Positions 32,692 to 56,688 of a stretch of 64,000 nt of DNA are shown in pieces. The stretch comes from an uncultured Lachnospiraceae bacterium (lineage in GTDB: Bacteria; Bacillota; Clostridia; Lachnospirales; Lachnospiraceae). The position numbers and the translations under genes are program-made. How positions within the stretch are numbered: position 1 is the stretch's first letter; each line of letters starts with the position of its first letter. The stretch spans positions 1-64,000 of the forward strand of contig CANSPM010000006.1 in assembly GCA_947648875.1 (NCBI GenBank). The letters are read 5' to 3'. The notes below the pieces were generated by a model. The model did no database searches, was not told where the DNA came from, and was given only the letters and a program-made list of their open reading frames with translations.

Positions 32692-32725
32692 CTGATTTCA
32701 GGAATTTTGAAATTCCTGAAATCAG
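32692..32725. terminator. 34-nt near-perfect palindrome, probable old terminator of the ABC exporter
   Basis: CTGATTTCAGGAATTT and AAATTCCTGAAATCAG form a perfect 16-bp stem around a 2-nt spacer, 32 nt after the exporter remnant's stop. No T-run follows on the + strand, so it may instead be an insertion-end relic. Confidence 0.5.
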
Positions 32726-52698: not shown

Positions 52699-53745
52699 AT
52701 GGCCAGGGCATCAGGACAAAAATTAAAATTGCTGTATTTGGTTAAAATATTGATGGAGGATACGGACGAAGAGCATCCTATCAGCACACAGGAACTGATC
52801 AGCCGCCTGGAAAGCCTGGGGATACACAGCGAGCGCAAGAGTATCTATGACGATATTGCCTGCCTGCAGCAATTCGGCTATGATATCCTACAGATACAGA
52901 GCAGGCAGGGAGGCGGCTATTATATGGCGGGCAGGGAGTTTGAACTGGCGGAACTGAAACTTCTGGTGGATGCGGTTCAGTCTTCCCGCTTCATTACAAC
53001 CAGAAAGTCCCGGGAACTCATCGGCAAATTGGAAAAGCTGGCCAGTAGTCATGACGCGGGCAAACTCAGGCGCCAGGTTCATGTGGTGGGCCGTGTCAAG
53101 GCGGAGAATGAGAGAGTGTATTATTGTATTGATGCTCTGCACCGGGCGATTCAGGGCAACCGCCAGATCACTTTCCGGTACCTGGAATGGAATGAAAAGG
53201 GACAGCTGGAGCCCCGCAGACAGGGGCGCCTTTACAGGGTCAGCCCCTGGGAACTGATCTGGCGGGAGGAGAATTACTATCTGCTGGCCTGGGACGAGTC
53301 TGCGGCCATGATGAAACATTATCGGGTGGATAAGATGGACCAGGTGGAGGAAATGCCAAAGCGGCGGCAGGGAGACGAAGCCTATGCCGCGCTGGATCTG
53401 GCAGTGTACGCGGACAAGACGTTTGGCATGTTCGGAGGCCGGGAGGAGACAGTAGTGCTGGAATTGCTTCCGCGCCTGGCAGGGGTGGTGCTGGATCGCT
53501 TTGGAAGGGAGATATCTCTGCGCAGGGAGGGGGAAAACTGTCTGCGGGCCAGAGTCACTGTAGTAGTCAGCGAACAGTTTTACGGATGGCTGGCCGGACT
53601 GGGGCGCCAGATCCGAATCGTGAGTCCTTCGTGGGTCAGGGAAGAATATTGCGGCAGACTGCGGGATATTTTGGGACAGTATCTCCCGGAGGCGCAAATG
53701 CCGCTGAAAGAGGATTCCGGCGCGGAAATTGCGGGAAGTCAATAA
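52699..53745 (+). CDS. WYL-domain transcriptional regulator
   Basis: DNA-binding protein of 348 residues. The N-terminal winged HTH (ISTQELISRLESLGIHSERKSIYDDIACLQQFGYDI) is followed by a WYL domain (about 145-230: GNRQITFRYLEWNEKGQLEPRRQGRLYRVSPWELIWREENYYLLAWDESAAMMKHYRVDKM), which in other proteins senses small ligands or nucleic acid. The C-terminal extension is typical. RBS GGAGATAAAG precedes ATG 52699. Targets are unknown; no defence or CRISPR genes are nearby. Confidence 0.9.
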   Translation: MARASGQKLKLLYLVKILMEDTDEEHPISTQELISRLESLGIHSERKSIYDDIACLQQFGYDILQIQSRQGGGYYMAGREFELAELKLLVDAVQSSRFITTRKSRELIGKLEKLASSHDAGKLRRQVHVVGRVKAENERVYYCIDALHRAIQGNRQITFRYLEWNEKGQLEPRRQGRLYRVSPWELIWREENYYLLAWDESAAMMKHYRVDKMDQVEEMPKRRQGDEAYAALDLAVYADKTFGMFGGREETVVLELLPRLAGVVLDRFGREISLRREGENCLRARVTVVVSEQFYGWLAGLGRQIRIVSPSWVREEYCGRLRDILGQYLPEAQMPLKEDSGAEIAGSQ

Positions 53746-53810: not shown

Positions 53811-53839
53811 TTGACTTTTGGCACATTTTTTTTTATACT
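53811..53839 (+). promoter_or_regulatory. Promoter of the nrdDG operon
   Basis: TTGACT (53811-53816) and TATACT (53834-53839), exactly 17 bp apart. Transcription would start near 53846, just before the first NrdR-like box. Confidence 0.82.
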
Positions 53840-53851
53840 AGAAGACAAGCA

Positions 53852-53905
53852 CTAAATATAGAAGTCAAAAAGTCAAATGCCTACTATATATAGTAGGCAT
53901 TTGAC
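53852..53905. promoter_or_regulatory. Two NrdR-like operator boxes, one inside a 34-bp perfect palindrome
   Basis: NrdR represses ribonucleotide reductase genes through paired boxes of consensus acaCwAtATaTwGtgt. Here CTAAATATAG (53852-53861) and CTATATATAG (53884-53893) both match the core, and their centres are 32 bp apart, three helical turns, the spacing known for NrdR pairs. The second box is the middle of a perfect 34-nt palindrome (53872-53905, halves GTCAAATGCCTACTATA and its complement), longer than NrdR needs. It lies in the transcribed leader of nrdD, so the RNA could also form a 17-bp hairpin. No nrdR gene is in the window. Confidence 0.78.
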
Positions 53906-53933
53906 GACGGCCACAGGAAAGGAATGGGGTAGC

Positions 53934-56123
53934 ATGAACAATTTGGCGGGACAGGAGAGCAGGAATGCGGAGGATTATGGCATTATCTATAAGCCGGAGC
54001 AGACGGTATATGTCATTAAGAAAGACGGCAGCAAAGAATCTTTTAATGTTCAGAAAGTGATTGATGCCGTGGGGAAAAGCGCGTACCGTGCCCTGACCAA
54101 GTTCACCGATGAGGAGAAGCGCCATATCTGCCAGTATGTGGTGGACAAGGTGGATGAACTGGGGCAGACACAGATCCCCATCCCCATTATGCACAATATT
54201 GTGGAGAGCGCGCTGGAGCAGGTCAAGCCTGTGGTGGCCAAGAGCTATCGGGATTACCGCAACTACAAGCAGGACTTTGTGCGCATGCTGGATGATGTGT
54301 ATAAAAAGAGCCAGTCCATTATGTATGTGGGGGACAAGGAGAATGCAAACACGGATTCCGCTCTGGTGTCCACCAAGAGAAGTCTGGTTTTCAACCAGTT
54401 GAACAAGGAATTATATCAGAAGTTCTTTATGACTACAGAGGAGATTCAGGCATGTCGGGACGGATATATCTATGTCCATGACATGTCCGCCCGCCGGGAT
54501 ACCATGAACTGCTGTCTATTTGATGTGGAAAACGTACTGCGGGGCGGTTTTGAGATGGGCAATGTGTGGTACAATGAGCCAAAGACTCTGGACGTGGCCT
54601 TTGACGTGATCGGAGATATTGTACTCAGTGCCGCCAGCCAGCAGTACGGTGGTTTTACTGTGCCCAGCGTGGATCTGATTCTGGAGCCCTATGCGGAGAA
54701 ATCTTATCGCAAATACCTGGACAAATACGCCCGTCTGGGGATTGACCCGGCCACCGCCGAAGCGGAGGCAAGCGCGGACGTGGAGCGGGAGTTTGAACAG
54801 GGCTTCCAGGGCTGGGAATATAAATTTAACACCGTGGGCAGCAGCCGGGGGGATTACCCTTTTATCACGGTGACGGCGGGCACGGGTACGGGCCGTTTTG
54901 CCAGACAGGCTACCATCACGATGCTGAATGTGCGCAGAAAAGGACAGGGCAAGGCGGAATGTAAGAAGCCGGTGTTGTTCCCCAAAATTGTGTTTCTTTT
55001 TGATGAAAATCTGCATGGCCCGGGCAAACCCCTGGAGGATGTGTTCGAGGCAGGGGTGCAGTGTTCCGCAAAGACTATGTATCCAGACTGGCTGAGTCTC
55101 ACCGGCAAGGGATATGTGGCCAGCATATACAAGCAGTATGGCAGGGTTATATCCCCCATGGGGTGCAGGGCGTTCTTATCTCCCTGGTATGAGAGAGGCG
55201 GCATACATCCTGCGGATGATGCCGATATCCCCGTATTTGTGGGGCGATTCAATATTGGGGCAATATCCCTGCACCTGCCTATGATTCTGGCCAAAGCCAG
55301 AAAGGAGAGTCGGGATTTCTATGAAGTGCTGGACTATTATCTGAACCTGATCCGGCAGCTGCATATCCGAACCTATGCCTATCTGGGAGAGATGCGCGCG
55401 TCGACCAATCCTCTGGCCTACTGCGAGGGCGGCTTTCTGGGGGGACATCTCAAGCTGACGGATAAGATCAAGCCTCTGCTGAAATCTGCCACGGCCAGCT
55501 TTGGGATCACGGCTCTGAACGAATTGCAGGAGTTGTACAATGGAAAGAGCCTGGTGGAGGATGGGGCCTTTGCGTTGGAAGTAATGGAATATATCAATGC
55601 CCAGGTGACGCGGTTCAAGGAGGAGGACGGCAATCTATATGCCATCTACGGTACGCCTGCGGAAAATCTCTGCGGTGTGCAGGTCAAGCAGTTCCGCAAG
55701 AAATACGGTATTGTGGAGGGTGTTTCGGACAGGGAGTATGTGAGCAACAGCTTTCACTGCCATGTGTCGGAAGAGATCACCCCCATTGAGAAGCAGGACA
55801 TGGAGGATCGTTTCTGGGATCTGTGCAACGGCGGCAAGATCCAGTATGTGAAATATCCCATTGATTATAATATCGACGCAATTAAGACCCTTATTTACCG
55901 CGCTATGGATATGGGTTTTTACGAGGGAGTAAATTTGTCTCTGGCCTACTGCGATGACTGCGGTCATCAGGAGTTGGAGATGGATGTGTGCCCCAAGTGC
56001 GGAAGCCGCAATCTGACCAAAATTGACCGTATGAACGGTTATCTGTCGTATTCGAGAGTACACGGGGATACCAGATTAAACGAGGCAAAGATGGCGGAGA
56101 TTGCGGAAAGGAAGTCCATGTAG
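53934..56123 (+). CDS. nrdD: Anaerobic (class III) ribonucleoside-triphosphate reductase
   Basis: Glycyl-radical enzyme that makes dNTPs without oxygen. An N-terminal ATP-cone (YVIKKDGSKESFNVQKVIDAVGKSAYRAL) is the allosteric site, followed by the catalytic barrel. Near the C-terminus is a Cys4 zinc site (CDDCGHQELEMDVCPKCGSRNLTK) and the radical-glycine region RMNGYLSYSRVHGD. The length of 729 residues is normal. I start at ATG 53934; the ORF track start lies inside the palindromic operator. It is followed after one base by its activase gene nrdG. Confidence 0.96.
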   Translation: MNNLAGQESRNAEDYGIIYKPEQTVYVIKKDGSKESFNVQKVIDAVGKSAYRALTKFTDEEKRHICQYVVDKVDELGQTQIPIPIMHNIVESALEQVKPVVAKSYRDYRNYKQDFVRMLDDVYKKSQSIMYVGDKENANTDSALVSTKRSLVFNQLNKELYQKFFMTTEEIQACRDGYIYVHDMSARRDTMNCCLFDVENVLRGGFEMGNVWYNEPKTLDVAFDVIGDIVLSAASQQYGGFTVPSVDLILEPYAEKSYRKYLDKYARLGIDPATAEAEASADVEREFEQGFQGWEYKFNTVGSSRGDYPFITVTAGTGTGRFARQATITMLNVRRKGQGKAECKKPVLFPKIVFLFDENLHGPGKPLEDVFEAGVQCSAKTMYPDWLSLTGKGYVASIYKQYGRVISPMGCRAFLSPWYERGGIHPADDADIPVFVGRFNIGAISLHLPMILAKARKESRDFYEVLDYYLNLIRQLHIRTYAYLGEMRASTNPLAYCEGGFLGGHLKLTDKIKPLLKSATASFGITALNELQELYNGKSLVEDGAFALEVMEYINAQVTRFKEEDGNLYAIYGTPAENLCGVQVKQFRKKYGIVEGVSDREYVSNSFHCHVSEEITPIEKQDMEDRFWDLCNGGKIQYVKYPIDYNIDAIKTLIYRAMDMGFYEGVNLSLAYCDDCGHQELEMDVCPKCGSRNLTKIDRMNGYLSYSRVHGDTRLNEAKMAEIAERKSM

Positions 56124-56124
56124 T

Positions 56125-56688
56125 ATGCGATATCATAATATAACAAAGGACGACATGCTCAATGGGGACGGTTTGCGTGTCGTGCTGTGGGTGGCGGGCT
56201 GTAATCACTGCTGTAGGGAGTGCCACAATCCGATTACCTGGAACCCGGACGGAGGTCTGCTTTTTGACGGGGAGGCAAAAGAGGAGATATTTGCGCAGCT
56301 GGAAAAAATGTATATTTCAGGGATCACTTTTTCCGGCGGAGATCCTTTGCATCCGGCTAACCGACGGGAGGTGCGTTCTCTGATGGAAGAGATCAGGGAA
56401 CGGTATCCGAAAAAGACCATATGGTTGTATACCGGCGATCTATGGGAGAACGTTCTGCATTATCCTCTGATGCAATATGTGGATGTGCTGGTGGACGGTG
56501 AATTTCAGGCGGAGAAGAAGGATGCCAAACTGCTCTGGAAAGGCAGTTCCAACCAGAGGGTGATTGATGTGCAGGCCTCCCTGAAACAGCCGGACCCGAC
56601 AGTGCCGGTTTTGCACTGCGGAGACTATGCGGGAGACACTTTGCAGAGCGGTGAGATTCCATTAGGGCCCCGATGTGATCAGAGATAG
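56125..56688 (+). CDS. nrdG: Anaerobic ribonucleotide reductase activating protein
   Basis: Radical SAM enzyme that creates the glycyl radical on NrdD. The CxxxCxxC cluster is in VAGCNHCCRECHNPITW, and the family GGDP motif is ITFSGGDPLHPANR. The length of 187 residues is normal. I start at ATG 56125, one base after the nrdD stop, so translation is coupled; the ORF track start overlaps nrdD. Confidence 0.96.
   Translation: MRYHNITKDDMLNGDGLRVVLWVAGCNHCCRECHNPITWNPDGGLLFDGEAKEEIFAQLEKMYISGITFSGGDPLHPANRREVRSLMEEIRERYPKKTIWLYTGDLWENVLHYPLMQYVDVLVDGEFQAEKKDAKLLWKGSSNQRVIDVQASLKQPDPTVPVLHCGDYAGDTLQSGEIPLGPRCDQR

Follow-up and report, generated by a model that had tools for sequence, protein, structure and literature searches.

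NrdR from several phyla binds pairs of boxes separated by spacers of 14–17 bp, with an optimum of 15–17 bp (PMC12051234). The closest described systems are the operators of E. coli nrdDG, nrdHIEF and nrdAB and of Streptomyces coelicolor nrdRJ, which share with the locus presented here the paired palindromic and AT-centred boxes of 16 bp, the 16-bp spacer, the position at the promoter of an RNR operon and the presence of NrdR in the same genome. Unlike in these operators, the second box of our locus lies inside a perfect palindrome of 34 bp, and no such extension is described in the available excerpts of the NrdR papers (PMC12051234; PMC9110341). Long palindromes can also arise by mutation: in E. 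coli, template switching turns quasi-palindromes into perfect ones (PMC7202029), and a single template switch is able to make a perfect stem (PMC8794818). Quasi-palindrome mutations of this type, known from thyA and lacZ reporters in E. coli and from the evolution of RNA stems, convert an imperfect into a perfect inverted repeat and come with clustered changes in an arm, as would be the case here. In contrast to the reporters, the event at our locus is read from a comparison of species alone, and its seed would be a transcription-factor box.

The nrdDG leader and its NrdR boxes

The window (the whole 64-kb stretch of DNA that was analyzed) contains nrdD and nrdG behind a sigma-70-like promoter (Table 1), and related nrdD leaders have a promoter in the same position, mostly with the sequence TTGACA-N17-TATACT. 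The first-pass annotation had described two NrdR-like boxes, with centres 32 bp apart, downstream of this promoter, the second of them embedded in a 34-bp perfect palindrome, and on both points it proved correct. From the position of the promoter, box 2 and the palindrome are expected to lie within the transcribed leader. An ATG at 53877, within the palindrome, was rejected as start codon of nrdD; it is without a ribosome-binding site, and the N-termini of the relatives agree with a start at 53934.

Table 1. Features of the nrdDG leader and operon in the window.
Feature	Position	Strand	Basis or remarks
Sigma-70-like promoter of nrdDG, TTGACT-17-TATACT	53811..53839	+	Consensus scan, 10/12 matches
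NrdR box 1, GCACTAAATATAGAAG	53849..53864	+	Starts ~10 bp past the -10 hexamer; counterparts align in 126 leaders
Inter-box spacer, 16 bp	53865..53880	+	Last 9 bp are the outer left arm of the palindrome
Perfect palindrome, GTCAAATGCCTACTATATATAGTAGGCATTTGAC	53872..53905	.	Centred on box 2; 17+17 nt, 100% complementary, no spacer
NrdR box 2, CTACTATATATAGTAG	53881..53896	+	12-bp core ACTATATATAGT
Purine-rich ribosome-binding region	53917..53930	+	Sequence; 11 nt 3' of the hairpin
nrdD, anaerobic (class III) ribonucleoside-triphosphate reductase, 729 aa	53934..56123	+	TIGR02487, 560.8 bits, cut-off 326
nrdG, anaerobic RNR activase	56128..56688	+	TIGR02491, 187.7 bits, cut-off 126

Both 16-bp palindromic boxes match ACACWATATATWGTGT, with weighted consensus scores of 18/24 and 20/24 for box 1 and box 2, respectively, and no other pair with such scores is present in the window. 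A degenerate pattern of the box pair at the 32-bp spacing had a single match in the 3.86-Mb genome, the nrdD site, and the reversed control of this pattern had none; likewise, the core of box 2 occurs as one exact copy in the genome. When paired boxes were searched genome-wide at spacings of 30, 31 and 32, nrdD was recovered at 32 together with two matches at 31. Neither of the latter has an RNR gene next to it, and both are probably due to chance: the pair at C5:37436 adjoins tgt/yajC-like genes, and the pair at C78:11912 lies in a stretch without long open reading frames.

NrdR itself, on which the earlier reading of the locus depended, is encoded in the genome as a protein of 149 aa (TIGR00244, 204 bits against a cut-off of 124.65, covering 1–146 of the 147 model positions). 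It has an ATP-cone, the Zn-ribbon cysteines C3, C6, C31 and C34, and also the residues R12, D15, R17, R26-29 and R37, which are named as DNA contacts for the S. coelicolor NrdR-DNA structure (PMC9110341). The 16-bp spacer between the boxes, which sets their centres approximately three helical turns apart, falls inside both the published range and the published optimum. Paired boxes with starts 30–33 bp apart were found in 126 distinct nrdD leaders (including that of the window), next to 26 records without a pair, some of which are truncated. As the genome encodes an NrdR with the contact residues, the spacing is as published and the pair recurs in 126 leaders, the operator assignment is strong at the level of sequence; the leader elements almost certainly represent a standard two-box NrdR operator that controls the nrdDG operon, and we infer that NrdR binds here and represses nrdD. 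The designation of the operator as "textbook" in the first-pass annotation is supported by the spacing, the presence of NrdR and the conservation, but is slightly generous, as box 1 strays from the consensus in its right half (AGAAG) and box 2 ends in CTA...TAG where the consensus has ACA...TGT. A clean NrdR operator is hereby given, together with its repressor, for a lineage of the Lachnospiraceae.

A gene for a class I/II large subunit (PF02867) was not found in the genome. A second anaerobic RNR (class III, NRDD family) is encoded at G000:C36:16411-18108 (L255), and its Pfam match is stronger than that of nrdD in the window. No NrdR box pair is present upstream of this copy, and therefore the two class III enzymes may differ in their regulation. 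Directly upstream of nrdD and on the same strand, the window encodes a protein of 348 aa (52699-53745), which we take to resemble a WYL-type transcriptional regulator and for which the NCBIfam models gave no match. It is a neighbour of nrdD in G039 as well, and in G050 it is located at the facing contig end. Among named records, metagenome-assembled genomes of Lachnospiraceae are the nearest, several of them labelled Acetatifactor, and we treat this genus label as a lead rather than as a test.

The palindrome around box 2 and its counterparts in relatives

The palindrome is a real outlier, beyond chance. In a background sample of 464 kb (about 12% of this genome), it is the only perfect palindrome without a spacer that exceeds 20 bp, the runner-up measuring 20 bp. 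The probability that the 9 matched pairs beyond the 16-bp box were added by chance is ~3e-6 per site, or ~5e-4 over 150 boxes.

Across the relatives, the comparison of nrdD leaders confirmed the boxes and their spacing as conserved, but the outer palindrome is missing from close relatives, as in the first half of the refuting condition set by the first-pass annotation (loss without effect). Counted from the middle of box 2 to either side, 305 of the 1125 position pairs at positions 9–17 in the 125 other leaders can pair (27%), compared to 289 ± 14 (26%) in a control in which flanks were swapped between leaders (upper-tail fraction 0.14). Inside box 2, positions 1, 3 and 5 are highly paired and positions 6–8 moderately so, with background levels beyond. 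As outer pairing is at background, the extension is not a common property of these nrdD operators.

The nearest genome with a full leader, the sister G179 (89% nucleotide identity in nrdD), has an imperfect counterpart, TGCC-C-ACTATATATAGT-A-GGCA, in which 10 of 11 positions pair (one mismatch) before the symmetry breaks. Compared to G179, the window shows clustered substitutions and a 1-nt gap at corresponding places in both arms, and its right arm is mostly in common with that of G179. G050 is approximately as close as G179; its right arm is different (ATACC), and the left arm is lost to a gap between contigs. In G050, the nrdD leader is interrupted past the -10 element and ahead of box 2, where contigs C169 and C116 (L109, L003) end, and perhaps a palindrome at that place is the cause of this assembly break.

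Extended arms around a box were also observed in other relatives, with different sequences. In L253 (G162 C167), box 2 carries a separate perfect palindrome of 24 bp, GGCAACACTATATATAGTGTTGCC, which is unrelated in sequence to the arms in the window; the leader of G149 is otherwise like that of G162, yet its palindrome is just 12 bp. Extensions to 18 bp and 20 bp are present in G164 and L070, respectively.

Origin of the outer arms

A standard NrdR operator with a lineage-specific palindrome, perfected by a template switch, is quite probably the best explanation of the locus as a whole, and for the outer arms as such the leader comparison makes a neutral origin through template switching likely. 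Box 2, palindromic in itself, would have formed a quasi-palindrome with its flanks, similar to that of G179, and a template switch during replication would have copied one arm onto the other, perfecting the quasi-palindrome in the lineage of the window. The outer arms would then be a recent product of mutation in no need of a function, and an RNA hairpin would probably be a by-product. The imperfect arms of G179, the clustered changes and the different 24-bp palindrome that G162 has separately fit repeated perfecting by template switching. As to which arm was ancestral and which was copied, both arms of the window differ from G179, and the left arm of G050 lies in the contig gap. Possibly, the history ran in the opposite direction, and G179 has the decayed remnant of an ancestral palindrome that was longer. 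Against a neutral origin it can be argued that a perfect palindrome persists only when it is recent or maintained, and that long box 2 palindromes of different sequence in the window and in G162 are also expected under selection for a hairpin.

Such selection, acting on the outer arms in this lineage, is the basis of a rival reading: once transcribed into the nrdD leader, the palindrome would also work as a hairpin that shields the mRNA at its 5' end or adjusts translation. As RNA, the palindrome is predicted to form a stem of 15 bp closed by a UAUA loop, at -21.9 kcal/mol, and to dominate the fold of the leader (leader z-score -5.5), and the box arms in G162, G164 and L070 are extended too, each by different sequences. 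The additional role as a hairpin that the first-pass annotation had suggested nevertheless finds no support in the comparison: despite the strong hairpin predicted here, outer pairing is at background in the 125 other leaders and the nearest relatives are without a perfect stem. Moreover, the hairpin stops 11 nt ahead of the ribosome-binding region, leaving that region free in the predicted fold, and an Rfam search gave no family near its gathering score, with chance matches far below the threshold. A terminator-like reading of the hairpin applies to the minus strand only. We therefore consider the selected hairpin rather unlikely as an account of the arms, and a lineage-specific effect of the modelled hairpin on mRNA stability or expression possible. 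A combined scheme, in which NrdR boxes seed recurrent template switches into long hairpins (34 bp here, 24 bp in G162) that in some lineages would tune nrdD on top of NrdR, appears improbable.

The perfect dyad symmetry reaches past the NrdR box, as would be expected if a second dimeric DNA-binding protein recognized the outer arms GTCAAATGCC and GGCATTTGAC. This second factor, also proposed in the first-pass annotation, found no support: the arm pair has no other site in its own genome at up to 2 mismatches and a single one at 3, taken as chance, and exact matches were absent from the GTDB r220 contigs scanned, a scan that may omit the own or very near genomes. As the arm pair was not found elsewhere, a regulon of such a factor is unlikely; the arms are different or imperfect in the closest relatives, and overall we regard a second factor as highly improbable. 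The poor right half of box 1 could be offset if the longer palindrome raised the affinity of box 2 through extended NrdR contacts. This is very unlikely, considering that NrdR touches the boxes themselves in the S. coelicolor complex, as far as described in the available excerpts of PMC9110341, and that a weak box 1 is frequent in relatives without an extended box 2. Finally, the palindrome was found in one assembly only and the contigs of G050 end in the corresponding part of the leader, as might be seen with an assembly artefact; the palindrome is however located mid-way in a contig of 108 kb, could be spanned by one read and has a right arm mostly in common with G179, which makes an artefact hardly credible.

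The proposed perfection of the palindrome by a template switch suggests that a striking operator palindrome can be a lineage-specific product of mutation and not a second regulatory layer. The related leaders form a ready data set for the question whether transcription-factor palindromes seed template switching.

Several other structures were observed. In L252 (G164 C46), a seeming third NrdR-like box, GGCTATATATCGTGG, is located approximately three helical turns past the extended box. The longest stem-loop of the 464 kb sampled, at L120:15117-15170, has a 24-bp perfect stem and a 6-nt loop, and a further long near-palindrome in the window (32692-32725) consists of a perfect stem of 16 bp around two central nucleotides.
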